This document shows, one piece after another, positions 3,515-35,299 of a DNA stretch of 64,000 bases (positions are counted from its first letter, which is position 1; every line of letters begins with the position of its first letter). This DNA is from Cucumis sativus (Eukaryota > Streptophyta > Magnoliopsida > Cucurbitales > Cucurbitaceae): NCBI RefSeq assembly GCF_000004075.3, contig NC_026658.2, forward strand, positions 24,354,075 through 24,418,074, given 5' to 3'. The translations under genes were made by a program, and so were the position numbers. A model generated the notes under the pieces. The model was not told the DNA's origin. It was given only the letters and a program-made list of their open reading frames with translations, and did no database searches.

Positions 3515-6500
3515 ATGGCAATGGTGGAGGCTGGATTTTCCGTAGGATCGCGCATTAGAACGCGTGATTCTAGTCCTGAGTCTGTTGTTTTCACTCTCGA
3601 GTCGAATTATAGCGTTTTCTCTTCTACTTCTGCTAGTGTTGAACGCTGCTCTTTCGCCTCTGATGCTCACGATTATGACTGTCGAAACTCTGAAATTTCC
3701 CTGGTAATTTGTTTACTTCCATTTGAAGTAAATTGCTTAGTTGGTTCGTTTGCGTTCTTCTTTCGCGGTAATGGAATGTGTAGGTTTTAATAGCTTGCAT
3801 GATAGGAACGATTCTTTGACCAGAGATGAGATCGTCTCATTCTGCATTTTGTTAAGATATCGATAATATGAAGGAACATTGAGGATTTTTGTTCGAGCTA
3901 TAAGATTTTGCATGCATAGTTGGAGTTTGAGCAATTATTAAGTACAATATACTGAATCTTTTTATTAAACTGCAGCACCTGGAAGGGAATATTGAGGAAT
4001 GTAAAGAAGAAAACAATGGTTCAGATTCTGATCCGAAGGCAATCGATTCCTCTGTGGGAAGGGAGCTCAATCGTCTACCTGGAAAAAGAGAGAAAATGAA
4101 AGGTATAGAGTTGGTTTTTAGGCTTAAAAATCAAATGTGCAAAAAGAAAAAAAAAGAAAGGTAAGATTAGAAAGGAAAGTGTTGGAGAGATTGACAGAAA
4201 CGGAAAAAGTTCTTTGAGAGTTTTCACGTTGAGTCATCTCAATCTTTTTTCTCACGTTCTCCTTCAATGTTGGGCAGTTGAAAAGGAAAACAGCTATATT
4301 GATGCGATGGATGGATGCCAACCATTAAATATGGCTAGAAACTCCTTTTCTCTCGCTCTTAAAGGTAATTTGTAATCTCGGCTAAATGATAATTGATAAT
4401 TGATGCTCTGTCTTGATACTTGGGGAAAAATCCAACTGTCTTTACAGAATGTCGCGATCGAAGGACTAGATCCGAAGCTTTATTGAATAAAGTAGACAGA
4501 CAAAGAGCTGCTTCATTGGATTTGAATACTGTCACTGTCTCATCTCCTCATTTGGCAATCATGAGAAAGAGCTCTTTCTCTCCTATAATGTCTGATACTA
4601 GTATGCTACAAAGTCCTGCTGTGACGAGTTGTAGGCCTGCCAATGCTGAAATCCAAAAAGGCTGGAGCTCAGAAAGAGTTCCGTTACATAAAAATTATAG
4701 CTCAAAACAAGCGACTACCGCATTCTTGCCTTTCAGTAATGGGAGAACATTGCCATCAAAGTGGGAGGATGCAGAACGGTGGATCGTCAGTCCTGTTTTC
4801 AGAGATGGTGTAGTCAGATCTGCTGTCCCTCCACCTCAGAGGCGGCCTAAGTCAAAAAGTGGCCCTCTTGGGTTTCCTGGTATTGCGTACAATTCATTGT
4901 ATTCACCAGGAATGCAGATGCTTGAAAGCTCAAAGGAGGCGAATTTCGTGTCATCACCTTTTACACCAGGAATTGTTGCCGCAGATGGGTTGGGAGTTCA
5001 TTCAAGTGGTCATGAAGCAGACAAACCTGTACAGAATCAGCCTTGCATAGCACGTTCAGTTAGTGTGCATGGTTGTTCTCAAACGAGGAGTGAGTCTTCA
5101 TTGACTACATCAGTTGGTATGAGTTTAGTTTTCTTTGGATGACACCTTCATCATGTTATGACTGAATTAATCATCAGTTTGATTGAAATATAAATAGTTT
5201 GTCCTTTTTTCCTGGAGCACGTGAAAAGTGAATTTGATCGTGGATATTGAAAAAAGAAAACTGAACCATAATGATTTCGATAATTTTCTTATCATTCAAA
5301 ATTGTCCATTCTAATCTACTAAACATTTAAATGTAGCTCAAAACTCTAGCGGAGTAAAAAACTCAACCACAAATATATCTTGTGGTGTTTCAAGAAGGGA
5401 TATGGCTACCCAAATGAGCCCAGATGATGACTTTAAATCATCTTTGGATAGACCACCTATCTCTATCGCCACTTCTTCTGTCCAACCCATTGGGAAACTT
5501 AAGAGCCTGTCTTGCTCGAAATCAGAAGTCAGGGATGTTGAGGTTGATGGACGTGTTACCTTGACTAGGTGGTCTAAGAAACACAAATCTCGGATTCCAT
5601 GCAAGGGCCAAGTTCATGATAAAGATGCTGAGCCTGTGATCTGTGCTTGGGATGTTTCAGACACAACAAGGAGCATCTCAAAGTACGTAAATTCATCTAC
5701 ATAATCACATTTATATAAGATGGTATTATGCTCCACAAAATAATAATGAAGAATTTTGAAGTGCTTTTTAACTATTGAAGAAAGAAATTATTGCCTACAA
5801 GGGAGACAACTTTTTTTTGCATACCATGAAGGTTGGGACCGGGGTGTTTGATAGATATTCACACTGCCATTATATTAAATTTATGGCAAGAATTCTATGA
5901 ATTAGTGAGTTATCTTGCAGAACATAATATAAGATTATTATTGATTGTTGCATCCTTCACTTTTTTACCAGAGTCATGAGAGAGGAGGCAAAGATTACAG
6001 CGTGGGAGAATCTTCAGAAGGCAAAAGCTGAGGCTGCTATTAGGAAGTTAGAGGTAGTCTTCAACTCGACCTATGACATTGTGGTGTGTGTGTGTGTGTA
6101 CAGATATGTATGTACGTATGTTTTCAAATATCGCTTGCAATTTATAGAATATACTGTTTTCTTTATCCTCACAAAAGGCTTTTTTTTTTATTTCATGCAA
6201 TTTTTCTCTATATTCATGAGGTCTATTGTTTTAGTAACACTAAACGTTGAGACTTTTCTTTTTAAATTTATTGCTTCATTCCTTTATAAGTTGTAGTCCA
6301 CATTGTTGCTTGGTTATACCGTGCTGTGCTGATCATTTTTATAGTTTGCCATGCTTAGTCCTTTTGTACCTCATGGAACTACGTAAATGCAGTCTAAGGT
6401 TCTCATAACTGAAGGTGATAGGGACATTAAAATTCAGTTACTTATTTCAAAATATATTTCAGATGAAGCTGGAGAAGAAGAGGTCATCATCCATGGATAA

Positions 6501-6669
6501 GATCATAAAAAAGTTGAAATCTGCTCAGAAGAAAGCTCAAGAAATGAGGAAATTCGTGCTAGCTAATCAGATGAGCCAAGTTGATGTATCTTCTCAAGGG
6601 CTGGTATCTTCTGGCAGAAGCCCTCAGAGGACTTCATTAAGTGGTTGCTTCACTTGCCACGCTTTCTGA
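3515..6669 (+). CDS. Remorin-family protein (long N-terminal region type)
   Basis: Seven exons, frame closing throughout: 3515-3703, 3976-4102, 4278-4364, 4448-5116, 5337-5682, 5972-6053, 6463-6669; 568 residues. Remorins are plant-specific proteins of the plasma-membrane inner face that organise nanodomains. The C-terminal Remorin_C coiled coil spans roughly residues 455-545 (AWENLQKAKAEAAIRKLE, then a Lys-rich helix). Upstream are motifs known from the long-N-terminus remorin group: PSKWEDAERWI near residue 236 and RRDMATQMSP early in exon 5. The protein ends SGCFTCHAF, a Cys-containing anchor. An in-frame TTG precedes the ATG at 3515; a second ATG at 3521 is an alternative start. The gene converges on lipase copy 1. 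Family assignment is firm; the exact orthologue is not. Confidence 0.93.
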
Positions 6670-7382
6670 GGCTGGATCAAGGAAATTACTTCATATGTCA
6701 GGTAACCGTAACCTTTCTGCTAAAAGTAAGTCTTTATTCATTCTTCCTCCCTGCAATATCATCTCTCCAAACCAACCAAAAGAAGGAAAAGAAAGAGAAA
6801 AGGAAAAGGACAATCTCAATATCCTTCCAAAGGGGTTTTGAGAAAATCTCTAGTGGCAGATCTTCTTGAATGAAATCTGGTGACCGACAAGCATTGCCAA
6901 TGGCCGACCAAGTCAAAAGTTGGTTGATGTTAAAAGCATGAAATTTTTATTAGGGATGTAGGGTATATGATACATAAGAATGTCTCTTGATTGTAGCTAG
7001 CTAGGAGTGATGAATTTCCATCTTATGACCTATTTCTAATCCATTCATATTTTTAGCTTGAGTTTCACTCTTCTCCTCTTTGTATGTTTCGGAATTTACC
7101 ACAGTTGAAAGACTTGAAAATGTTATTTGAAAGTTTAGTAAATGAAATGAAATAAATGTAAAAGTTTAGGGATGAAAATAGAATTTCAATGTCAATGGAA
7201 ATGAAAATTGAACTGTATTTCAACTCTCGGGTAATTAACAGATGCTAAGCATCAAAATTGATAAAACTATTTTGCAATTGCAAATCATATATGACATTGA
7301 TATCATTCGCTATACCATTACACTAACATGAAGGTAAAAAGAAGAAGAAAAATTAATTTTAATCTTCTTCTTGCTGTATTTT
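6670..7382. other. Convergent intergenic stretch
   Basis: Lies between the remorin stop and the stop of the minus-strand lipase copy 1, so it should carry both 3' untranslated regions. Short open frames here are not conserved-looking. No repeat family was recognised. Confidence 0.6.
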
Positions 7383-10080
7383 TTAGTAGTCCGGTTCTAT
7401 ACAGTCGTCTCCATCTTCAAGAATTTCCTCAGGTACGCTTAATTTTCCTAAGCGAGTGGAATTAACATAGTCCGTAGGAATGTGAGCGGTGAGTCCTGGC
7501 ATAAGCAGTCCAATAAACCTTACCCCTTTCATTGCCAAACTCTCGTAGTAATCATAACCCTTCACAAATGGGATTAGAAAACTCCTTACAAGCTCCAACC
7601 ATGCATTTACGTACTTAGGTATTAGCCATAGCAATGAGAAATAGTTCTTGTTTGGCTGTTCCTTCACAATCTGTACCCAAAAAGAAGAAAGAAACATTCA
7701 AATATTATTCCTCATCAAGTCATTTCCTGACAAGTTAGAAAAGAGGGTTATTTAATTTTGTTCTTACTCTGCCTCTGTAAAGGCTGTCAAAATAGATGCA
7801 TCTTCCGAAGTGTTTGTATTTGAAAAGAATGCCATCAGCAGGAAGTCTAGGCACCAAATCACTAAAGTACACGTATCTGTAATACTCGAAGTTGTATTTT
7901 TTGATGATGCTTACCATAAACTCTGCAAAATGTCGGTCACCGACTCTTGGTTGCCCATAGCTGTAGATAGCCTTTATCTTCTCTAGCACCAATGACTCGT
8001 CGTGAAGGGCAAGTATCGCGACGAAGAGGACAGCAAGAGCTGCACCTAAGCTGTGGCCGGTGAAGATGAACCTTGCATTGGCATTGGTTTTGGCAATGTC
8101 GATGAGTTTTTGACGGAGGGTGTAGTAGGCAAATTGGGGGGCACCGGTGGTTGTTGGAGTGAGTTCTTTAGGCCAACCTTTGCGCTTCTGTAGGCCGAGG
8201 GCTTTCATGAAGCCACTATGAATACGACCAACACCATGAATTTCGTACCAAGAGAAGTCTAAATTGACTTGCCAATCGTATGCGTCGAGTGGGGTAGTCC
8301 CTCTGAAAGCCACCACTGTTGTGTTTGGATCTGAGACTGTGGTTTGAAACAGAAATGCTTGAGTGGATGCTCGGCTTTGGAAGTCTGAACATTTCCAAAT
8401 CAGCTTCAATTAGATAATCCTCAGGATGTAGTTTTCTTTTAACCCATTTATCCAAAATCTTACATGATACGACTTCAAATCACTTTCTATCTTAACTACG
8501 CCAACCTAAGCAGAACCTCCTAGCAAGATATTTATAGTTTTCTTTCTTGTTCTTCACAATATTTGGAGTGAATCAATTCAAACCTCATATCTCGAGACTA
8601 ACTATCTTAGACTAATCAAGCAAATTCATATTACAAACACAAATCGTCCTATTTTTCCATGAACTCGGTAACATGTGAGAAATCCAACCTTTCCTAGTGG
8701 TCAAATATATATGTTTTAGTCAATATCATGAACTCTACTTTTGACTTTTTAGCATAGTAATTATTGGAATTGTGGTCACATGAATTCGACAGTTATTAGC
8801 ACCATAAGTCCATATAGTCTTACCATTCCAGAAATTGTAGTAACCGAGTAACTTCATCTGCAAGAAAAAGAAAAAAAAACATAATCTCTTCATATTGATC
8901 AATCTATATTCATATAACATTCAGAATATAACCCTTTTCAAATAACTAGTTTGGACATATGATTAAGAAAAACGCTATAAACATAAGTTTGCTTCCCCCT
9001 TCGTTTAACAATCTTTTACATTTTGTTTTCTTTAAATGAAAGTAATGCATTAACGACATATTTATAGAGGTAGAGATAGATATTCTAACTATTAATCTTA
9101 AGATAATTAACAATGTTTCTATGACCCCTTAATTAATTGATGATTTCTACTAACTGATGGATAGACAAGTAACGGTTTTTACCTTCCAACGGTCGTTGAC
9201 GACAGATTGGACAAATGGAAGGGATTCATAAGAGAGTTTGGAAGCCATAACAGTTAGGACACTATAGTATCTGAAAGTGTCGTCAGGATTTATGGAATTG
9301 TCCAAATCTCTTCTCCAATCTGTAAATCCCACAACTGATGTGTAATCTGGCGAACTTTTTTTAGGCTGCACCAAAGTCTCTCCTATGCACAAAATACTCA
9401 AACCTCTCATTTTCATCCAAATGTAAATAATTAACTAAAAACATTTTAGTTTCTATAAATTATTATATGTAAGAGGATAGCGTTTATAAGCTTAACTTTT
9501 TAAAAATTATAATACAAAAACAAAGATTCCGTTTGCTATTCACTTCATTTTTTGTTTTCAATTTTTGAAAATTACACTTGTATGTAAACCTTCACTTTTC
9601 TTAAAAATTGTGTTTGAGCTATAAACTTGATTTTGAGAGTACTTTCAAAGGTTGGATAAAGAAAAAGGAAAAAGGAAAAAACATTGTCAAATGATACATC
9701 TCTTAGGGACTTAAAGAAAGCACAATAAACCATATGAGAATAAGGTGATTATAAGAAATAATACCTCTGATGAATTTGAAGAAAAGCTGAAGAATGGTAC
9801 CATTGAAGGAGATGAAGTTGAGGAGTTTTTGGAGAAAGGCATCCAAGTTAGCGAGTGGAATAGCAATAGCGAGAATGAGTATCTGTAATGACAGGGAGAC
9901 GAAGATTATTAGACGATCAGCAAAGCTTCTGTAAGAGTCTTCTTTACCATCAGGACAATCCATCAACTTCCTCTTCTTGAACCCAAAAGGAAGTATGAAC
10001 AGAATCAGATCAAACACATTTGCATTATGTGGCTTCAATATCACATAATTTTTACTAAACTCATGTTCTTTCCAAACCAT
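7383..10080 (-). CDS. Class-3 lipase, OBL1-like, copy 1
   Basis: Five exons on the minus strand: 10080-9765, 9382-9183, 8857-8824 (34 nt), 8384-7768, 7670-7383; 484 residues. The family hydrolyses triacylglycerol, and characterised OBL1 proteins sit on lipid droplets. An N-terminal hydrophobic stretch (LIIFVSLSLQILILAIAI) is the likely membrane or droplet anchor. The alpha/beta-hydrolase core has TVVAFRGTTP, the nucleophile elbow GHSLG with Ser about 295, Asp about 359 in SDLVPRLP, and the probable His about 452 in TAHIPTDYVN. The base after the elbow is unusual: GHSLGAA, where the sister copies have GHSLGGA. The tail ends CIEPDY. The start ATG is the only one in register with copy 2. Substrate is inferred from family only. 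Confidence 0.93.
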
Positions 10081-11635: not shown

Positions 11636-12701
11636 AATTTATTTAAGGTCTATCTTTAAAAATTTCTATATTTATAGATATTTCTAGTAATTTAATTTTT
11701 TTATTTACCATCATTTTCTTTTTCTATTTCTCCTTCAAACTCACAATTTCATCACGTAATATAGAGAGAAAAAAAATTCCATACTCTCTTTGTATATAAT
11801 TTAAAAATTAGCACTTAAATTTGTATGTTACTTGACATGGTATAATTGTCCAATTAAGTGGAATGTGTAAAGATAGATACTCCCCAAAGCACACCTAAAT
11901 ATTTTTCTAGCCAAATTTAGATCTATTACTTGAAGTCTATCTACCATCTTACAAAGTTTACTACATTTAATTTTCTTTTAAAATATTATTATACATTTAA
12001 TTATACTTCATAAAAGTGTTATCCAATTCAATTATCTAAAGAAAAGTTTTTAAAACTAGTAGATTTTACAAAATATTTACAATCTATAGCAAATTCTAAT
12101 ACTTATAATCATTGATATGTTATAGTGATAGAAGACCATCAGTGACAATTTAAAATTTTGCTATAATTTATAAATATTTTAATTTATTTTACTATTTTAA
12201 AAAATGACCCTATCCAAATTTAATAATATAAACCATGGCCATAAATTTGATTAATAATACGCAAGAGAGCTAGCTTTTGAGCCAAATATTTAGATAACAA
12301 TTAATTATAACTAATTTTATTAGCTATAAATTATCACAACACGTTTTAAACTACATTTTTTCAGTTGTTTGCTTAAATAAAAAGAAAAAAAATGTAAAAT
12401 GAAACTACTTATAAAATATAACAAAATTTTCAAATGGTAGTAAAGAGTTTAATAAATTTTGCTATATATTTTATAGATAGTTTCAATATTTTGCTATTTT
12501 TGAAAATACACCTTAAATTTTTATTGAATTTTTAAATTTGCTTATGGATCACTAATATTATCTCTCCACACTTAAATCATCTAGAAAAAGGTATTGAAAA
12601 TGAGCTACACGTTACATAGTTGTGAGCTACACGTTACATAAAGTACAACTAAGGTAATTAACTTAGTCGTTCAACAATAAATGGCAAGTACTTGAACATT
12701 T

Positions 12702-14090
12702 TTAGTAGTCGTCTTCAATTTCGTATCGAAGAATGGGATCTTCGACCTCGTCGGGTACATTTAACTTACCCAAACGAGTGACATTAACATAGTTCAAAGG
12801 AAAATGAGCAGTAAGTCCTGGAATCACGAGTCCAACCAATCTTGCACCCTTCATTAACAAACTCTCGTAGTAATCAAAACCCTTCACAAATGGGATTATG
12901 AAACTCCTAATTAGCTCCCACCATGCACTTAAATATTTGGGTATCACCCATAGCAACGAGAAGTAGTTCTTGTTTGGTTGCTCTTTCACAATCTGCACCC
13001 AACCAACAATATATATATATATTTTTTAAAAAGTGTATGCTGCTATAAATTTTCGAGAAAGAAAAGATATGTAAATCGTATCTATCAATGCCTTAGGTGG
13101 CGATGAGCATTATAGAGTAATTTATTGAGTGATAAAAAGGAAAAAAGAAAAGGTGGTGTTAATTTGTTCTCTTACCCTTCCTTTGTAAAGGCTGTTGAAG
13201 TAGACACATCTACCGAAGTGTTTATATTTGAAAAGGACGGCATCAGAAGGAACTCTGGGCACCAAGTCATAAGAGTAAACATATCTATGATACTTGAACC
13301 CATATTTTTGGATACAATTAAGCATGAACTTTGCAAATTGTTGGTCACCAACTCTTGGTTGCCCATATGTGTAAACGCTATCCAATTTCTCCAAAATGGT
13401 TGACTCATCATGTAGGCACAACACAGTGACAAATAATGTGGCCAAAGCTCCACCTAAACTGTGGCCAGTGAATATGAACCTTGCCTTCTCGTTGGCTTTG
13501 GCAATGTCTCTTAGTTGTTTCCTGAGGGTGTAATATGCGAACTCATGTGTTTGAGTTTTGGGAAGCTCCTTTGGCCATCCTGTTGCCTTCTGAAGCCCTA
13601 GGGCTTTCATGAACCCACTGTGGATCAGGCCGACATCCTCGATTTCGTACCTGTAAATATTAGATTCAGAAAACACGTTTTGGGTTTAATAGAAATGATT
13701 ATAAGAGGTATTAGTTACTCATCCAAAGATGGTGAGCTCCAAACAAGCTAAAACCACTAATCAAATTCACTTTGGTGAATCATACTAATCTTAAAACATA
13801 ATTCTTTTAAAGAAGAAAACTAAACTTTGAGATTAAATAATGATTAAGGCCGTAATTAAATTAAAAGAAATGAAAGAATGTAATGTAAGCGTACCAAGAG
13901 AAATCAAAATCCACTTGCCAATCGTATGCGTCAAGTGGGGAGGTGCCTCTAAATGCAACAATTGTTACATTCGGATCTATGGCCGTGTTCTTAAACATAA
14001 ACGCCTGAGTCGTAGTTCTACCTTGAAAATCTGAACAACAACAATTTCATACATAAAAGTTCAATATTATTATTTACTATATTCTATATA

Positions 14091-14152
<62 letters not shown>

Positions 14153-15887
14153 CCTTCTTACTTTTATTAAACAGATTTATTTTTCTTATTAAAACTATGT
14201 TCAATTAATTAAATTATTTCAACCATTTGACTTCAAAATTATAATTGATGCAAGCCTTATCTAGGTTGAGTTATTTTCAATTTCACATTTTCTTTATATT
14301 TATAGTTTGAAGAATAAAATCCTCTAGCTAAAAATCAAAATCAAAATTAAAAACGACAAAGAAGATTTTCAAAATGTAAAACTGAATAACAAAATTTAAT
14401 TCTTCTTATTAATCAGACAGTTACTCCATTTTCAAAAATGAAAGAAAAAAAAGAAAAAAAAAGATGTCCAAGATGAGAGGAGAAACTTAAGGTCAGCCTA
14501 AGTTTGGTTAAAGACAAATAAGCTTGTGAAGGTTACGTTATTTGTCCAATAAAGTTAAAAATTATGCCTTCCTGTCACTGTTCTTACACCATACAATGAT
14601 ATAAACCTCACGGCTCTTTCACTGTTTTTATTCTATGGTCACTTCATTAATATTCCTCCACTAAACCAACATGTACTTAATTAATAGAGTATTAATAAAC
14701 TTGAACTGGTCAGCTTTAAGACCCAATCAATTAATTCTAACTAATTCAAAGTTGATTAACTAATCTAATTATGACCTTTGATGCAGAGCTCAAAAACTCT
14801 TACCATTCCAAAAGTTGAAGTAACCCAGCAACTTCATCTGCAAGAGGGAGGGAAAAAAAGACAAGAAAAACAATCATTTACCACACCCTTCTAATATTGA
14901 TTTATAATCAAATTTTAGTTTACATCTCTAATATGAATTTTTTTTTGTATATTTTAATCCAACTTTCAAAATTTAATTATTTCTATTATATATTGTTAAT
15001 TTCTTCTACCAATCTTTACATTTGTTGTTTGGTAGAGTCAAACTTTATTTCTAGATGTGTATAATTACTACTATGACTGGATCGTCATAGTATGACTAAT
15101 AATTTTTCAGATGGAGAGATGCAAGTGATTATTCAAATTCAAATAGTTATTAAGACATAACGATTATATTGTAAAGGAGTTAAGTAATTAATTATGAAAT
15201 TTTGGTGAAGGATTGGCTCGAATTTTCGATCTAGTATGTCTGTTCCTATTTAAAGGAATATAAGTTTTACCTTCCAACGATCATTTACAACGGATTGGAC
15301 AAATGGTTTGGATTCATAAGAGATTTTGGTAGCCATTGCAGTTAAAGCACTGTAATATCTGAAACTCTGTTCAGGTTTTATTGACGAATCCAAATCTCTT
15401 CTCCAATCTGCAAATCCCACCACCGATGTGTACTCAGCCGAATCTTCATTAACCTTCACAAAACCCTTTCCTATACAAAATAATTAATTATTACATCACA
15501 AACAAAACAAAAAAAAGAAACCCTTGTTAGTTAATATTTAAAATGTAATCATAATAATTAATAATATATACCTCTGAGAATTTTGGAGAGAATCCCCAAG
15601 AAGCCGCCGTTGAAAGAAATAAAGTTGAAGAGTTTAAGAAGAAATGCGTCTAATTTTGCAAGAGGAGTGGCAATGAGGGATAGGATGAACTGAAGCAACA
15701 TGGAGACGACAATTAGCCATCGGTCTGTGAAGTTTGTGAAATAATCTTCTTTGCCATATGGACAATCAATGAATTTTTTCTTTCTTAATCCAAATGGAAG
15801 TAAGAACAGAAACAAATCCAATAAATTAGCATTTTCTGGCTTCAATATCACATAATTTTTACTAAATTCATTTTCAATCAAAACCAT
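12702..15887 (-). CDS. Class-3 lipase, OBL1-like, copy 2
   Basis: Six exons on the minus strand: 15887-15572, 15470-15271, 14837-14804 (34 nt), 14030-13895, 13650-13176, 12992-12702; 483 residues. It has the same domain order as copy 1: N-terminal hydrophobic anchor, FRGT strand, FTGHSLGGA elbow, YDLVPRVP acid loop and TAHFPLNYVN with the probable His; the tail ends EIEDDY. The catalytic exon is split by an extra 244-base intron (13651-13894) inside the Trp codon of DFSWYE, which copies 1, 3 and 4 lack. The start at 15887 (MVLIENEF) aligns with copy 1; an upstream in-frame ATG at 15923 would add 12 residues with no counterpart. It is closest to copy 1 by eye. Confidence 0.93.
13651..13894 (-). 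other. Extra intron, lipase copy 2 only
   Basis: The donor reads TTG|GTACGC and the acceptor CAG|GTACGA, so the intron start and the following exon share GTACG. Removing it restores TCT TGG TAC GAA, the same uninterrupted codons seen in copy 1. The other copies are continuous here, so the intron is a copy-specific difference. Confidence 0.9.
14097..14149. repeat. (AT)n microsatellite in copy 2 intron
   Basis: About 26 uninterrupted AT units in the intron between the 34-nt exon and the first half of the catalytic exon. Confidence 0.95.
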
Positions 15888-16008
15888 TTTCTTTTTTCCT
15901 TCTTTCTTATTAATATCTCTCAAATTTTGGAAGAAGAGGAAGAAGATGATGATGATGATGATAGAAAGAGTAATATGCTGTGAGTAAGTTTGTACCCTAA
16001 AGCTTCAG

Positions 16009-16016
16009 TTTATATA
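16009..16016 (-). promoter_or_regulatory. TATA box of lipase copy 2
   Basis: TATATAAA on the minus strand, about 120 bases upstream of the chosen ATG. It supports a leader of about 90 bases that includes the short run of CAT repeats near 15940-15960. Confidence 0.55.
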
Positions 16017-19000
16017 ACATTGGAAAGGTGAGGGTAAATGACAATTTTAGCCTTGACTGAGAATAATGGTTTGGGGTTGTTTTGTATTCCTTAAACCCAC
16101 ATTTTCTTTATAAGTTTTATATATTGAGGTGTAAAAAATGAAGCCGAACCTTCTTGTTTGACCCTGAGTTTACCAATTAGTATTTTATTACCCCTCGTGC
16201 TTAACTAGTTGATTAAACTTAGATTGTTAGTTTGGATTATTTAAATTTCTTTTCTCAAACGATATATATAAATAAAGCTAGAGATAAAATTGAAAGTTCA
16301 GAATAAAAATAATACCCTCAATCGAATTTAAGGATAATTATTGGATTTGATAGAGTTAAATTTTCTGTGGGATCTGAATTATATTATAATTAAAGGATAT
16401 ATATATATATATAATAATTTGACTTCTTAATAAGCTCATTTGAAATTTCAAATTATTTATTAAATATCTTTAGACCTTGTGGATAAACATTACTTTTATA
16501 TTATATTAATGAATATCCTTTTAGATTATCACAACACTTGAGTTAACTTTTTTTTCTTGTACAAGCAATTAGGTTTTTTTTCCATAAAATTATATAATAT
16601 TGAAAACAGGGGTTATAATTATTCAACATATAACTAAAAAAGTTTGCCCCTTAACTAGAATTACTCGAATTTATTGGATTAGGAACGCTATTAAATTATT
16701 AACCTTTATTTATATTTTGATCTATGACTTGCCCTCATAAATATTAATAGGGCATGCATTAAAGTCAAAAGAGCTTGGGTACAAGCAATATTTATACAAG
16801 TTTGGCATATGAATGGAGTGGTCTAAAGGAAAAATTACTAGTTACTAATTTTCTTATCAACCATATGACTAATATATTAATAGAAATTATATATCATATA
16901 AATCCCAGTTAGTTAATTTATTTTTTTACAAAAAAATTTGAAGTTTTGTATGTATGATAGCTACCTTTTTTTGTCTTGCTCTTTCCTTTTAAATCTAAAA
17001 TAAATTTGAAAAAAATAGTTGTCAATAGATAAGTTATTCTTTGTTTACATTCAATGGTCGTATTCTTTTTCTAAAAAACTTGTATATTTTTAAAACATTC
17101 TTAAAAAAATATCAATTGACATTTCAAATATTATATGACATATAGTTATATTATAAATTCTGTGTATAACCTTAGAATATATATACACACACATGTATAT
17201 ACACATGCATATACACACACATATATATAGCTTTTCTATGCCTTTTGGCTCTTATCCTTTCTTCTTGGACTCAACTCATTGTGTGTGTAACGTGTTTTTG
17301 AATTTTGTGAATTAACGGTGAAGTTATTGTGCTAAATTTGACACCTATTTTAATAATGAAAATGAGTTTGACCCATTAAAAATATATATTTAATGGCTAA
17401 TATGATTGTTGAGCACTTAATTAAATCTACGCATATATATATATATAAAAAGTTTAGTTTAATAATAATTAACAAATCTTCTCTGGATTAAAATTTTAAT
17501 CTCTTTCTTTCCTTTTGTAGAGAAAAAATTTAATCTCTTTCCTTTTGTAGTTGGTGTTGGTGTAGTAATTAAAAAATTAAATTATCTTAAGATAAGCAAA
17601 AGTGAGTATAAATCAATCAATGTTCAAGTATATATGCATGTACTATCAATTTTGAAGTTTGATCCACTATTCTACCCATTCTTCGTAATGACAAAATATA
17701 TTTTTATTTTAAGACCCTTTCATCTTTTTTGTTTAGTTTAAGGTCACACATTCCTTCTCAAAATCACATCATTTTTTTTTTTAATTTTCTAGACAAGAAA
17801 AGAAGAAAATGCGTTTACTTAATTATTATTTTTTACTTTATACTTATATTCTTACACAACTTATCGTTTCAAAAGTTAATGGGACTTAATACATATTGAA
17901 GTTAAAATACAAATTTTTATATAAGTTATAAATTATTTGTAATGTGGTTGATAAAATAACTTTTATATCAGGGTTTTTCATTAAGAATTGTAATGGGGTA
18001 ATTAAAAAAGAAAACTGATATCCATTACGATGTTTTTCCTCAATAGCTTTTCAAATATAGCTTTCATATTTACTAATATAACACTCTAATTTCTGGGTTT
18101 CAGACTACACCCAAACTCTGTTAATGAGAAAGGGACTAAAATAGTATTGAATTTTTGAATGAATTTTGTATCTTTGTAATAAATAAGGCAGCACGCAAGT
18201 CACGGTTTAATTATTTTAATTACAACAACCATGCATCATTACAAATACAAATAATGACTTTGAAGCTTTCAAATATATGTTATACAATATTGAGTTGTAT
18301 TATTGTAAGTTTCACGAGTACTTAATTAAAGTTTATTCCTTATTTTTTTAAAGGAACACAAGGGGTCTATAACACCCCAAAACCCATTTATTGATCAAGG
18401 AAGTTACAGATAAAGGACTAGAGTGCAGCCCCATAGATCTAGAATCCAGTGCAAATTTAGTCAATGAAAGCACTTAAATTTAGAGAGGTTGTGCTTTGAC
18501 TATAGTTTTTGAAACAAGGGTGTGTATGCTTGACCACATTCCTGTTAGGATGCATATGTTTTCCCAAGTACCTAACAAGCTTAATCCTTTGTTATTGAAA
18601 ATCAAATTGTTTCTGTCCAACCAAATTACCCAAATGATTATTGCAACTGCCATGTTGAAACCGATGATGCTTTTTGTATTGTTGTATATGAGGTTACAGA
18701 GGGTAAGAGATAGAGATTTTAATATTTGTATCTTGCAATGCCAAACCAATTACCTCATTAGCTTTCTTCCATAGTGTTTGCGCTTTTGAACGGTGAATGA
18801 AGATGTGGTTCAGACATTTCAACCACATCTTCGTTTGCTAATTAGCGTGAGATATACCAATTTAGGATTAAAACAAGAAGTTGAAATCTTTTCTGAATAG
18901 TATCATCGTGTTCAGACGCTCATGAATAATGAAGGTCCACAACAAAATTTGATTGTTTTTGGGATAATTAAACCTTATTCTAATTTTCTTGTTTTTGTTT

Positions 19001-20270: not shown

Positions 20271-23200
20271 CTAGTAGTCAGCTTCAATGTAGTGAGCAAA
20301 CTTCAAGAGTTCGTGGTGGTCAGGTGGCAAATGTATATTACCCCAACGAGTCAGGTTGACATAATTTGAACATACATGAGCTGATATTCCCGGAATAACC
20401 AACCCAACTGTCCTTTCCATTATTGTAAAAAAACCCTCGAAGTACTTTCTACCCTTCACAATTGGGGTTATTATTAAACTTCTAATGAACTCCCAATCTG
20501 CACTCAAGTATTTGGGTATAACCCATATTAGTGAAAAGTAGTTTGTGTTTGGCTGCTCCTTCAAAAACTGCATACAAATATAACACCAAAAAAAAGAAGA
20601 AGAAAAAAAGAACTTATTCACTCTTTAATTATGGAAAATAAAAGAAATTAAATTCAAAGATATACCATCACACTATATAATATAATGTAGATTTCAGTGT
20701 AGCAATGATATAGATTATTGTCACATCCAACAACTTTTGTTATATGAACCAAAATATATATTTAATTAATTTACACAGCAATTCTCTTATATTTTATATT
20801 AAATTTGTTATATGAACCAAAATATATATTTAATTAATTTACACAACAATTCTCTTATATTTTATATTAAATTTGTCTCCATCCGTATAGTCCAAAGCTT
20901 TTGCATCAATTAGCGATTTAAGTCTTGAGATGATATATCAAAGCATTATGGTCTAAGATCACCTCTCTTTAGAGACCACGTTCTATGATACAATTTTAAA
21001 CAAGGAATTGATTCAAAAGCTTAAGTGTTGATGGAGAAAGAGACAAATATATTATTGAACAAATGTGTTGTTAATACCACGAAAAAATCGAATAAATGAT
21101 CAAATAGGTAGAGAGTCACCTTGCCATTGTAGAAGACGTCAAAGTAGACGCATCCACCAAAGTGTCTGTAGCTGAAATTAGCAAGAGAATGGAAAGGAAT
21201 TCTAGGAACCAAATCAAAAGAGTAAACATATCTATAATATTTAATGTCATGAGTTTTGAAAGTGTCGACCATAAACTGAGCAAAACTTTGATTCCCAACT
21301 CTAGGCTGACCAAAGGTATAAACAGCTTGAATCTTGTCAAGAAGGATTGTTTCATTGTGGTAGGCTAACAAAGTGACAAAAAGGGTAGCAAGGGCACCAC
21401 CCAAACTATGGCCAGTGATGATGAATTTTGCATTGTCATTGGATTTAGCAATTTCTCTTAGGTTTTGGCGAAGGAAGTAATATGCAAATTCATGTTTGGG
21501 ATCGGTGAGTTCTTTGGGCCAACCACCGGACTTTTGATAGCCAAGGGCTTGCATGAACCCGGAGTGGATGCCGACCTTGCCTTCTAATAGGAACCAAGAA
21601 AAGTCCAGATCAACCATCCAATCGTTAATGTCAAGTACGGATGTCCCTCTGAATGCAATCACTGTTACGTTTGGATCTTTGTGTGTGTTCTCAAACATAA
21701 TTGCATGAGTCGTAGCTTTGTTTTGAAAGTCTGCAAAATATGTAGTTTTTAAAAAACATTCTTTTCTTTTCCCGAATTTAGATAAGAATTCAACAAATAT
21801 AAATGCTTACTTGACCAAAAAAAATTAAAAAGCTTATTTTTCCAAAAGAAAACACAATATTAGTAAGTACGTGCACTAGAACATCTCCACTAGGTAGACA
21901 TTTATAACACTATCATCATTTCCTTTTATATAATAAAAGAATGTAAAAAGGTTGCTATCACTCAATTTTCAAAAACTAAAAGTACATATACCAAACAAGA
22001 TCTTAATTTAAAATATATATATTGAAATAAGAAGATAAAATGTTGATTCATGGTCAACTCTAAAAAATAGTTTTTTTATAAAAAAAATATGATGTAGGTC
22101 AACAGGTGCACCCGAACATCTCCACTAGGTGGACATCTCCATAGCATCATCATCATTACCCCTTCATTAATAGAAGCAACGAAAATAAAATCAATGGCTA
22201 GAGAAAAACCCAAGAAAACCCCATAATCCGTAGAATTGAACAAAAATGTTGATATTAAGATTGGCTGTATAGTTTGAGAACAAAGGGGAGGATCTGCTTG
22301 CTCAAAGATGGACAAGAGCTTTAATATCTTTCCAAACCCTAAAATCTAAAAAATAGTAAATTAAACAAGGTGCACCTAAGTTTTAATATTATTATGATTG
22401 ATAATATAAATACATTTTTTTTATAATACAACTAAAAAAGTAGACCAAGCTAAGTCTTTATTTATTCAAAATTATATAGAAGTCAACAGTCTTTATTTAG
22501 TTAGAAAAGTAGAAGTTCATTTCAGAGTCTTTATTTATTTGAAAAAGAGAATTCCAAAGTCCTTATTTGTATTTAATTTGATAATTAGAAGTTCAAAAAA
22601 AAAAAAAATCTTACCGTTCCAGAAATTGCGACAATCAATTAATTTCATCTGCATTTGAAAACCAAAAAATAACATCATGGATTGGATTTGTATCAAGTTT
22701 GAGAGAAGATTTGAATATTGCATTCAGTGTTCTTGTAAAATATTACAAATGAGATGAGATTAAATAGAAAAACTACAAGACAACATAAAATGAACAATAC
22801 ATACGAAATTCTAAATACATATCTGCACGTATTTATCAAAAATAGCTATAAAATAATTTTTGTTCTCTGAAAAACTAATAACAAATAACCAATTACCCAA
22901 AGTTTATAAATATTGCAAAGTTTACTTGCATATGAATATTATTCACTAATGAAACAGAAAGAGAAGAAGAAAACTCATCAGTTTATATATTCCAATCAGA
23001 ATTTAACATTAGGGTTGGCTGTTTTTCTTTAAAATTACTTAACTTCTATTTCATAATCCCTTTGTACTAGTTTTTGTTTTTAAAATTTAGCTAAAAACTC
23101 AATTATTATATTTAAGGAATTAGATGCCAATCAAGATAAAGCTAAAACTAAAATAGATTAGCAAACGAGACCTTAATTTTGTTTGGTAATCGATCAATTA

Positions 23201-23903
23201 AAATGTTTACCTACAATTATTTGAACAAAACCAACTTACTATAATTGGGTTAATTCAGGATAAACATATAAATTCTGTAACTTTTTCTTAAACTAAAACA
23301 AAATTTTTAACTTATAAATAACTCAACCGAACACTTAAAACAACTACTTAAAAGTTAAAATTAAAATTAATTTTGGAGTACCTGCCAGCAGTCATTTACT
23401 ACGAACTCAACGATGGAGGCGGACCGTGAATAATCTTGATATGCCAATTTGGAAGCCATAATGGTTAAGGCACTATAATATTTGAAATCACGGTCATGTG
23501 AATTCATGTCTGCATTGTCGTCGGGAACCAGCAATTCCCAGTCACTACATCTTACTCTGGGCTGCACATCCGTGAAATTAATAATCCGAGATGGCGCAAC
23601 CCAAAATTCTGCTGCCAGCACATACTTGTAGCAAAACTTTTGAATAATTGACCAAAATGCAACTAAGATTGTGAAAAGAGAAGCGATGGCAGAAAGGAAT
23701 TTCTGGGTCAAAATTGAAACAGAAATGGTCCATCGAGCTTTGAAATTGGTGTAAAGCTCAATTTGGTCGTCTGGACATTCCATCAACTTTTTTATCTTTC
23801 TGGAACCCGAAGGAAGTAAGAACTCCAATACATCTCTTACTTTTGCCTTATCTGGCTTTAATGTCAGACCATTTTCATTCAATTGTATCTCGTTAGAACC
23901 CAT
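20271..23903 (-). CDS. Class-3 lipase, OBL1-like, copy 3
   Basis: Four exons on the minus strand: 23903-23382, 22648-22615 (34 nt), 21730-21120, 20567-20271; 487 residues. The first exon joins what are two exons in copies 1, 2 and 4; coding runs straight through the former intron 1 site. Core motifs: VIAFRGTS, ITGHSLGGA elbow, SFDLVPRIP, probable His in SAHVCSNYVN, tail YIEADY. The N-terminal half is diverged from copies 1-2 and nearer copy 4 (MGSN start, CSDWE / CEDWR). An upstream ATG at 23936 would add 11 residues; MGSNE is preferred from the position of the following TLKP motif. Function is inferred from family; a droplet- or membrane-linked lipase is likely. Confidence 0.92.
20736..20876. 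repeat. 68-bp tandem duplication in copy 3 intron
   Basis: Two nearly identical 68-base units start TTTGTTATATGAACC; they differ by one base (CAGCAATTC versus CAACAATTC). They lie in the last intron of copy 3 and look recent. Confidence 0.9.
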
Positions 23904-30869: not shown

Positions 30870-33800
30870 TTAGGGTTTGATGTGTGAGGGTAGTTGTATT
30901 TTTCCATAACGAGTCAAGTTAATATAGTTCTGAGAAGAGTGAGCTGATACTCCAGGAACAACCAACCCAATCAGTCTAAGCATTAAAGTGTTGAAACCCT
31001 CGAAGTATTTAGGACCTTTGAAAAGTGGGATTACTAAACTTCTTAAAAGCTCCCACCACGCAGTCAAGTACTGGAAAGGTGTCAACCATGACTCACAGAA
31101 GTAGTTCGGGTTTGGTTGAGCCTCCAAAAACTGCATCCACTCAAAAATCATCGATTAATATAGTTAAAATTTGTTAAATTATCGGTCTAACTGAAAAACT
31201 ATGTAAGTAATCATCTGTTACTAAATTTAATTATATCCACACTTGATAACTCTAATTATCTTACTTTTGAATATGGACATATTTAAAATTAAATGAATAT
31301 TTTAAGACTTTATTTCTTTTTTTCTAAGATGAAAATTATCATTAAACTGCTTGCAGTCAATTTTAACTTAAGCTTTTGAAATTCATGTTTAGGATCTCAA
31401 ACAAACAAAAAAAATATTCAATTGCTTTAAAACTAGAAAAGCCAAAATTTATAATATATATATATATATTATTCGACTTAAGAATCTTGAGAAAAAGAAA
31501 CGACTTAAGGTAATACGTTGAGGATTCACATCGAAAAGATGAGAATATATATACTTCATAATCTGAAAAAAAATACACAAGCTTCTAATTAAATTCTATC
31601 ATCGTTGATTTTAAACTTAATATTTATTATTAGTAGTATTATTAAGAAATATATGTTTTCAAATATGACATATTGAACCAAAATATAAATATAACAAAAT
31701 TTCACTGTTATCAAGGATAGATTGGGATGAATTTTGATATATTTGTAAATACATTAAAGAGTTTTGTCATTTAAAACAAATTTACTTATTATTGTTATTT
31801 GGTGTTGAATATAGATGTTGAATATAGAGAAGAAATTAGAACTGTTTGGACTTTATAAGTATTAGGTTACCTTTCCTTTGTAGCATGAGTTGTAGTAGAC
31901 GCATCCACCGAAGTGTTTGTACCAAAAATTTTTGCAATCAAAAGGAACTCTAGGAACGATGTCAAAGGAGTAAACATATCTGTAATAATCGAAACCATAT
32001 TTTTTAGTTAGATTATTCATGAATTTAGCAAAATTTCGGTCACCGGATCTAGGTTGGCCAAAGGTGTAAATCGCCTGCAGCCTCTTTAGCAACGCAGATT
32101 CTTCATGGAAGGCGAGAATGGTAACGAAGAGAATGGCGAGGGCACCACCGAGGCTGTGGCCAGTGATGATGAACCTTGCCTTATCATTGTCTTTGACAAA
32201 GTCTCTAAGGACTTGGCGAAGGGTGTAGTAAGCAAATTCATGATTGTCAGGGCGAGGAGGGAGCTCCTTTGGCCAATCAGTGTTTTGTTGAAGGCCGAGG
32301 GCTTGCATGAAACCGTCGTGGATGTTGCCAATGCCTTTGATATTGTACCATGACACATTCAAATTTTCTGACCAATCTCCTAATGCTGAAGTGCCCTTGA
32401 ATGCCACTACCATTACATTTGGATCTTTTGCTCGAAATGCAAATGCTCGCGTTCTTATCTTATCTTGAAAGTCTGATCGTTTTTAAATTTAAAAACAAAA
32501 GACAAAAGATCATTAGTAATTTCTAGGGTTTTGAACACAATAACTAAGGCTTAAGGGTTAAGGCTTCCTTTCCTAACCATTTCTTTTTACTTTTGTTTTT
32601 AAAATTAATTAAGCTAATTTTTTCTCTCTATTTTATAATGTTTTGTGACTTTTTTTTAAATATTATAGTAGAATTCTTACCCAAATTTCAAAAATAAAGT
32701 TAATAAAATCAACTGTTGCTTAATTTTCTATAACAAATGGTTAACTAGACGAGATCTAAGTTTAAACGATAGGGTAATTGTTTGAAAGTAATTATAATAC
32801 AACTAAATGATGGAAAATTTTGAATCGAGAACTTCTTGTCGAGTTAAATTTATGTTAACAAAATTGTTTAAAATATTTACAAAATATAGTAAATATTACT
32901 ATCTTTTTTTAATAAACTGCTTATAGTAAAATATTTATAAACCAGTTATAGTCTATAATTAATATCTATCCCTCGTAAACAATAATATTTTATAATACTA
33001 GTAAATATTTTAGTTCATTTTGTAATATTTGAAAAGTATTTTATTTCTCAAATTTACGTGCAAAGAAGAAGGAAAAACAAACTAAAAGTAGTAATTTTCA
33101 TTTATGTTTTATTTATGAATAGGAAATAATATTGGTAGAGAGAAAATGAGACTTTTGGTTTTTACTTTTGGGGAAAAGAATATGTAAGTTAAATGTGAAT
33201 GATTGAAATGTTGGAGTAAATAATAGAAATGGGGATTTGATGTGTGGAGGAGTGTAGACCAAGTAGGAGATTAAATTTAAGGCCAATTTAATCTGCTTTG
33301 GTTGTAGTTGAGTTTATGCTATGAAATATTGTATTTTTTAATGTATTTTTCTTTGTTAATATAATTTATTCAAATTTTAAAATTGAAACTCAAAATCTAG
33401 ATTAGACTAAAACCAGTGAAAAAAAAATACATTTTTTTAGTTTTCATTGTTTAGATCACATAATTTGAAAACATAGTTAGAACTGTCAACCAAATATATT
33501 TATTCACTAAACTCATGCATTTGAAAACATAAAATAGATTATGAGTTTCATACCCAAATAGATCCCTCAGTTATATGGATGTAATGTAATTAATATTTTC
33601 AATTGACAAAAATTAAATGCATGCAACTTGGAGATGCATTACAGTCCACTCAAATAATGTCTTATAATAATAATTGTTATTATTTTTTAAAAAAAATTAC
33701 AAAGAGAGAATATATGTTGTACCTAATTATTAATTACTCCCTTTAAACAAAACCAACTTTTAATCAAAGGTGTTGTAGTTTAGAAGTTGGGTATTACCAT

Positions 33801-34035: not shown

Positions 34036-35299
34036 GTAAATATTTTTGTTGATTTTGAAAATAGTCCATTATTTTACCTTCCAGCAGTTATCAACGACGG
34101 TCTCAATGACGGGAGTAGATTCGTAAGCCAAAGTGGAAGCCATCATGGTCAGGGCACCATAATATCTGAATCCATTATCGTCTCCCAATTTTGAGTTACT
34201 ATTCTTCCCAACTTCTATTCTCCAGTCTTCACATTTCACTTTCGCCCCGTAAGTTTCTTGGGGTACCCCAAAAATCTTTTCTGCATATCCATACCCAATA
34301 GTTAATTAACATTATCAATTAACCAACAATCTTTTTTTACTTATTTTTATTTTTGCCATCCACGTACGATGAAGTATTACCAACCATAACAGTCCTCAAA
34401 TTCAAAAATGATAAACTTTTGGGTTTCTAAATTCTGAAATTTGTGTCCATTTTATTTTAAACAGCTGCTCGAAGTGTTGGATGAGTTCTTAAAATTTTCA
34501 TTGCGTGTCTATAATAGGTCCTTTGGACTTCTAATATTTTGAGTTCCATGTATCTCCCAAACAATCTTATTGCTTCCTCTTTGTGATGTCTATGGCTAGA
34601 TGAAACAATAATAACTAACCTTCCCAAAACATTAAAAATCCATTTTTGACATTTGTGGGATGTGAGATCGTTTCTTTGACGGCCCTTTTGATGAACAATA
34701 TCCTTTGATTTTTTGTGATTATGATGCATCTTCTATCGCTTCAAATTGAAAGCTTTTTTTTTTAGTCTTTTGCCTTTTATTTTTGTCATCAAACTGTCCT
34801 CTATATTCATATATTACTTATATTTGAATTTACGTCTAAACAAAACCCTAATTATTTTTAATTATTTCTTGTGTCTATTAGATGTGGATATCATGATGGA
34901 AAAAAAAAAGTGAAGAATAAAAGAATTAAAAATTCATAGAAAAATTTGTAACTTTAATTAAGAATAAAATAAACACAAACCTTAATTTGTTAATGGGTTA
35001 TTGCATGGGATGGGATATTCATAAAATAACATACCTCGCATGGTTTTAAAGGTTTGGAACAGTTTGGTTATGGCGATAAGGAGTTTCACCAGAAGAATGG
35101 AGGAAACAATAATCCATCGATCTCCAAAGCTTTGGTAAGAACGTTCTTTACCTGCAGGACATTTCACCAGTTTTCTGATGTCTACATAACTGAAAGAAAG
35201 TGTAAACAAAAACAGGTCCAATAGAGTTGCACTCTCAGGTTTCAGTGTCAAATAATCAACATTATTTGAACCCATTCTTTCTTCTCTGTTAAATACCAT
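30870..35299 (-). CDS. Class-3 lipase, OBL1-like, copy 4
   Basis: Five exons on the minus strand: 35299-35035, 34280-34078, 33831-33798 (34 nt), 32472-31871, 31130-30870; 454 residues, frame closing throughout. The N-terminal hydrophobic segment (WIIVSSILLVKLLIAI) is shorter than in the sisters. Core motifs: VVAFKGTS (Lys where the others have Arg), ITGHSLGGA elbow, SFDIVPRVP, probable His in SAHSSQNYIN. The protein stops at PSHIKP, without the acidic -DY tail of copies 1-3. The ATG at 35275 (MGSNN, as in copy 3) is an alternative start. It is the first gene in the direction of transcription and the most separated from its neighbour. It is probably functional, but it is the most altered copy. 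Confidence 0.9.
33994..34032. repeat. (AT)n microsatellite in copy 4 intron
   Basis: About 19 AT units lie less than 50 bases downstream (in the gene's direction) of exon 2, in the intron before the 34-nt exon. Confidence 0.95.

Follow-up and report, generated by a model that had tools for sequence, protein, structure and literature searches.

The closest described counterparts of the intron reported here are the neointrons of Daphnia pulex, which are attributed to staggered double-strand breaks. Among 90 new introns in Daphnia, 33 repeats of bases from the exon ends, 4–12 bp in length, were recorded (PMC4202315). Novel introns in Drosophila have been described as having weaker splice sites (PMC2809761). 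In one of several introner layouts, the 5′ splice site comes from a duplicated target, the 3′ site is borne by the insert, and splicing is length-neutral (PMC9860276). In the potato RdRp gene, a tandem duplication produced a private plant intron whose donor derives from former exon sequence (PMC4974935). A survey of rice found that three of five gained introns matched nothing but themselves (PMC1779517).

The intron described here lies in a cucumber lipase gene. Like the Daphnia neointrons, it is a probable exon insertion private to one lineage and has a short repeat of exon-end bases at its opposite ends (4–12 bp there, 6 bp here); unlike them it is undated and comes from one genome, whereas the Daphnia introns are population variants of tens to hundreds of thousands of years (PMC4202315). 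It shares a weak donor, a premature stop on retention and the lack of a source sequence with the novel Drosophila introns, for which the listed repeats are at least 8 bp, whereas ours is a single plant case with a 6-bp repeat (PMC2809761). Its layout is that of the introners mentioned above, yet introners form multi-copy families (PMC9860276), and the searches made here returned one copy of this insert. The potato intron arose from duplicated local sequence, whereas no local source was found for the cucumber insert (PMC4974935). Among the titles in the literature listings none dealt with this intron or with intron gain in this lipase family, and titles alone are no proof of absence.

Results

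The copy 2 gene and its private intron

The window analyzed is a stretch of 64,000 nucleotides of Cucumis sativus (contig NC_026658.2, positions 24,354,075 to 24,418,074). Its minus strand carries four tandem class 3 lipase genes, copies 1 to 4 (c1–c4). The family of copy 2 is presumably the one named oil-body lipase (OBL). A splice-aware model of copy 2 gives a frame intact over 483 amino acids and five GT-AG introns, four of them at positions shared with paralogues. The protein matches Pfam Lipase_3 with an E value of 9.4e-32 (profile 1–137 of 140), and the GHSLGG motif is encoded by exon 5. The features are as follows, with positions in the window; they come from the splice-aware model, the shared intron positions also from paralogue comparison.

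12702..15887, minus strand: copy 2 (c2), class 3 lipase gene, 483 aa, six exons; start 15887, stop codon 12704–12702; also supported by Pfam Lipase_3
15471..15571, minus strand: intron 1, aa 106, phase 1, shared position
14838..15270, minus strand: intron 2, aa 172, phase 0, shared position
14031..14803, minus strand: intron 3, aa 184, phase 1, shared position
13895..14030, minus strand: exon 4, ending ...DFDFS-TG
13890..13895, minus strand: donor-side GGTACG, the last exon base and first five intron bases (sequence and model)
13651..13894, minus strand: private intron 4, 244 bp, phase 2 in Trp229, GTACGC...TTTACAG (sequence and model)
13646..13651, minus strand: acceptor-side GGTACG, the last intron base and first five exon bases, equal to the ancestral Trp-Tyr-Glu coding sequence
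13176..13650, minus strand: exon 5, beginning G-TAC-GAA (Y E) and containing GHSLGG
12993..13175, minus strand: intron 5, aa 387, phase 0, shared position

A (TA)32 microsatellite at 14085–14149, within intron 3, is a possible marker for copy-2 alleles. No Rfam match at the gathering threshold was found in the copy 2 region (12600–16100).

The claim of the sequence-only reading that copy 2 alone is split by 244 bases holds to the base: the GT...AG intron on the minus strand runs from 13894 to 13651. It splits the Trp229 codon between TG and G. Because its length is no multiple of three and stop codons occur in all three frames, it cannot be coding; read without splicing, the frame reaches a stop as codon 12 if the Trp codon is codon 1. 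Its composition, 72.5% A+T with 43% T on the sense strand, falls within the range of the neighboring introns. Its GT-AG ends, and an excision that restores SWYEIE and the reading frame exactly, are those of a U2-type spliceosomal intron. The acceptor end reads TTTACAG/G. The donor, TTG/GTACGC, scores lowest of 27 family introns, with two others close (leave-one-out matrix, on the introns modeled before the k6b model was refitted), as expected of a splice site made from coding sequence.

The gene is under constraint on both sides of the intron. Ka/Ks between copies 1 and 2 is about 0.16 (0.182/1.171, with Ks taken from residue 108 on). Over copy-2 residues 112–440, the stretch also used for the tree below, c1 and c2 were compared with c3, k6c, m2 and m3, and their Ka values are less than 0.05 apart in both halves. 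In this stretch 8 residues before the private intron are unique to c1 and 9 to c2; after it the numbers are 17 and 10. Copy 2 is thus constrained like copy 1 and evolves no faster. Had the gene been broken at Trp229, its part beyond the break should have drifted, and the lack of such drift makes a case for splicing; the integrity of the frame and the constraint together suggest that the intron is spliced in vivo.

The intron is private to copy 2

The genome searched comprises 226.6 Mb in 88 contigs. A whole-genome protein search with a copy 1 exon returned 14 matches, representing nine distinct subfamily loci plus one duplicate contig (C18). The nine are c1–c4 in the window, k6a, k6b and k6c on C6, m2 on C2 and m3 on C3. 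The C3 lipase locus L017 (C3:26943269-26946568) recurs on the small contig C18 (L018, C18:40831-44130) with equal scores and identical exon translation, so that C18 looks like a duplicate contig in the assembly.

In splice-aware models the Trp229 intron is absent from all eight other distinct subfamily loci, and all eight Trp codons are whole. The other copies in the window show the site uninterrupted, reading DFSWYE, DFSWFL and NVSWYN in copies 1, 3 and 4, as had been noticed from the sequence alone.

7768..8384, minus strand: copy 1 (c1), the sister gene, unbroken exon across the site, TCT TGG TAC GAA (splice-aware model, codon comparison, tree)
21120..21730, minus strand: copy 3 (c3), unbroken exon across the site, TCT TGG TTC CTA (splice-aware model, codon comparison)
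31871..32472, minus strand: copy 4 (c4), unbroken exon across the site, TCA TGG TAC AAT (splice-aware model, codon comparison)

All nine loci have an intron at residue 172 (phase 0) and another at 184 (phase 1). The one at residue 387 (phase 0) occurs in eight, m3 having instead a doubtful intron at 389. The intron at residue 106 (phase 1) is found in four (c1, c2, k6b and k6c), the rest having none there or poor N-terminal models; the poor ones are those of c4, k6a, m2 and m3, and the c4 model ends at residue 429.

Several other features of the paralogue models were observed. Copy 3 (23382–23903 of the window) models without the aa-106 intron, with exons 1 and 2 fused, and may have lost it. 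The 5′ part of copy 4 (34078–35287) models badly, needing three poorly supported introns before residue 172, and may be decayed or rearranged. The C2 paralogue (L034, C2:14096500-14106400, 4688–7142) models with a private intron of its own, of about 2455 bp and phase 2, at the position of copy 2 residue 317; in the eight other loci the models show no break there. The C3 lipase (L035, 5139–5255) has an open stretch of 39 codons bounded by GT/AG near copy 2 residue 262, which is either an in-frame insertion or an optional intron.

A genome search with Lipase_3 gave 41 matches, of which 14, all counted outside the subfamily, span the site's part of the profile in one piece. Twelve of these 14 distant class 3 lipases were inspected in translation and read through, at the level of the translated stretch rather than of the exact codon. 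An ancestral intron near the site was considered for the distant lipases L023 and L024, which we take to be PLIP-like: their intron lies about 12 codons downstream of the matching Trp, whose codon is whole, and it is therefore at a different site. The viral and prokaryote collections, scanned once each, yielded no relative.

Gain or loss

In a maximum-likelihood tree c1 and c2 are sisters (support 91), c3 and c4 group together (85), and the other five loci stand apart at 100; the placement of m3 among these five is weak (40). On this tree one gain on the c2 branch accounts for the distribution of the intron. A gain in the c1+c2 ancestor followed by loss from c1 takes two events, one more than a gain in c2. 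If the ancestor of the subfamily already had the intron, three losses or more are required (in c1, in c3+c4 and in the other five), and intron gain is well supported for this reason. The copy-specific gain proposed earlier is thus upheld: none of the eight other subfamily loci interrupts the codon, c2 has c1 as its sister, and c3+c4 come next. Judging from the gene sequences and their tree, the intron was very probably gained within the c1+c2 lineage, and most likely after copy 2 split from copy 1. This is the most robust part of the analysis.

The repeat at the junctions

The 5-bp direct repeat GTACG noted earlier does begin both the intron and the next exon; with the preceding G, the string shared by the two junctions is 6 bp, GGTACG. 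The uninterrupted GGTACG target (TGG TAC GA) is present in five of the eight paralogues, namely c1, the three C6 genes and the C3 gene, and is missing at the site from copy 4 (TGG TAC AAT), copy 3 (TGG TTC CTA) and the C2 gene (TGG TAT GAG). As the paralogues read, the exon-side copy is the ancestral coding sequence, and the puzzle is why the donor reads GTACG.

The slide total of the private intron is 6, the only value of at least 6 among the 40 modeled introns; the next is 5, in k6a. For the repeat statistics 30 of the 40 were kept, the private one included, and 10 were dropped as doubtful or unshared: c4 aa 76, 115 and 128; k6c aa 106, although at a shared position; m2 aa 101, 114 and 317; and m3 aa 137, 262 and 389. 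The slide totals of the dropped introns are 0 to 3. When every donor was paired with every acceptor among the other 29 introns kept, self pairs included, a slide of at least 6 arose in 1 of 841 pairings, a figure that overstates the case because few of the paired exons begin with GT. None of these 29 donors reads GTACG, and C at donor position +4 occurs in three of them. With the exon start taken as GTACG, the product of position frequencies in the 29 introns gives ACG at donor positions +3 to +5 a probability of about 0.034. Since three of the six repeat bases (G, G and T) are forced by coding and splicing, the repeat is unusual, not decisive.

The published record also bears on this. A Drosophila control counted flanking repeats of 5 bp or longer at 26 of 100 introns that are conserved and at 19 of 77 that were gained (PMC3296678). 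Rogers and Bendich found repeats at the borders, or close to them, in all 213 introns that they examined, those of 6–30 bp being commoner than chance, and interpret them as insertion footprints (PMC11782384). As such repeats are found everywhere, a single one is weak evidence of a recent event.

Search for the source of the insert

The donor search suggested by the sequence-only reading yielded no second copy in the 88 contigs, at the sensitivity of the control described below. The whole intron matched only itself, as did each of two overlapping parts of it searched in the same genome with E up to 10. In the control, most of a copy 1 exon recovered the matching copy 2 and copy 4 exons at 70–72%, together with 51 bp of copy 2 at 90% and 99 bp of one C6 gene at 76%; copy 3, the other two C6 genes and the genes on C2 and C3 were not recovered. 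Weaker relatives would therefore escape the search. The search tool skips very common words.

The private intron has no terminal inverted repeats and no likeness beyond chance to the gene's own exons or to other family introns. Three candidates were rejected. A match to copy 2 intron 2 as the source (74.5% over 55 bp) was scored as high by 5 of 200 dinucleotide shuffles and by 2 of 29 other 3.5-kb pieces. An internal 13-bp direct repeat with one mismatch, taken as a break footprint, was equaled in 10 of 100 shuffles. A gene-conversion tract by the intron, suggested by the 51 bp at 90% between c1 and c2, was discarded as identity in a sliding profile is equal or higher elsewhere, for example at residues 1–33 and 409–433.

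Age

Ks between copies 1 and 2 is about 1.2 (1.17 from residue 108 on) and near saturation; within copy-2 residues 112–440 it is 0.98 before the private intron and 1.40 after it. All four introns that copies 1 and 2 have in common fail to align between the two genes at E 1e-3. The repeat gives no measure of time, because the Trp, Tyr and Glu codons hold one copy of it and the splice donor holds the other, and about one free base is left per side. The gain can be of any age since the old c1/c2 split, and the earlier description of it as recent is not supported.

Discussion

The reading that we prefer, with a probability of roughly 0.6, is that copy 2 gained a spliceosomal intron through an insertion that duplicated GGTACG, most likely during repair of a staggered break. 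About 238 bp of A+T-rich DNA would have been inserted in the copy 2 exon at ...TTGGTACGAA..., most likely after the split from copy 1. Most likely, a staggered double-strand break was repaired with fill-in, and GGTACG was thereby duplicated. The upstream duplicate of the exonic sequence would then have been co-opted as the 5′ splice site (G/GTACG), and the 3′ splice site (ACAG/G) would consist of the inserted DNA and the shared G. Splicing at these sites would restore the ancestral Trp-Tyr-Glu reading exactly and be length-neutral. In agreement with a staggered break, the ancestral target is repeated at both junctions, with moderate significance; what counts against the preferred reading is that neither a source sequence nor terminal inverted repeats were found. 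From these data we infer that insertion with duplication was the origin and that break repair is to be preferred over a transposon. The earlier proposal that the flanking duplication was left by insertion or break repair therefore survives as a plausible and preferred mechanism, with the weight placed on the repeat reduced, as it is partly forced and conserved introns are repeat-flanked at a similar rate (PMC3296678).

The strongest competitor, to which we give perhaps a quarter of the weight, is a gain in copy 2 without target duplication, where the 5–6 bp repeat is a coincidence between the donor and an exon start fixed by Trp-Tyr-Glu. The insert could then derive from an old reverse-spliced intron or from a duplicated segment that has eroded since. 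A donor must have GT at +1/+2, and the chance calculated above for ACG at the next three positions is small yet not negligible; repeat frequencies are also alike at conserved and gained Drosophila introns (PMC3296678), and a Ks of about 1.2 since the split could have wiped out any similarity to a source. Yet the C at donor +4, rare in the family, matches the ancestral exon, and the intron is unlike its own exons and other family introns beyond chance. Likewise, the resemblance to an adjacent exon expected of a tandem exon duplication was not found, although it could have eroded if the event is old. On balance, target duplication is somewhat more likely than not to have produced the repeat.

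A special form of the preferred insertion, which we consider doubtful, is that it is genuinely young, with its target duplication intact, and perhaps polymorphic or confined to the genus; coding sequence would then have become a 5′ splice site, and random filler a 3′ site, in a single step. Copy-2 orthologues that lack the intron and retain an intact TTGGTACGA site would mean a young gain and confirm the duplicated target.

It is improbable that the insert was a small transposable element, such as a solo LTR or a MITE, which made a 5–6 bp target duplication and later became an intron. An LTR begins with TG, which the insert does not; moreover, it has no terminal inverted repeats, and the similar copies expected of an element were not found, the insert being single-copy at the sensitivity of the search. 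In some introner families the duplicated target does provide the 5′ splice site and the element its own 3′ site, which is the layout in copy 2, yet the study describing them found no introners in land plants (PMC9860276). Two of five gained introns in rice matched transposons (PMC1779517).

Still less probable is an intron that predates the c1/c2 split and has disappeared from the other copies. Among rice duplicates losses outnumber gains (49 lost versus 5 gained; PMC1779517), the copy 3 model lacks the aa-106 intron, and two events suffice if the intron arose in the c1+c2 ancestor and c1 lost it again. Subfamily-wide ancestry, in contrast, costs at least three independent losses, and the distant class 3 lipases whose matches cover the site's part of the profile read through as well, at the level of translated sequence. 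Finally, that the insert is unspliced in a recent pseudogene or is an assembly artefact is very improbable, for although the donor is weak, the lowest of 27, GT-AG splicing gives the exact frame with 483 aa open, Ka/Ks to copy 1 is about 0.16, copy 2 shows no excess change before or after the intron, and the insert resembles the neighboring introns in composition.

Intron gains in plants have been found less often than losses (PMC1779517). A caution arises from this locus, in that a short repeat containing the splice donor is weak evidence and no clock. With eight intronless paralogues in one genome and a readable ancestral target, the gain is datable and its mechanism testable with a few cucurbit orthologues. 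The copy 2 intron adds one clean, ordinary case to a known class of intron gain.
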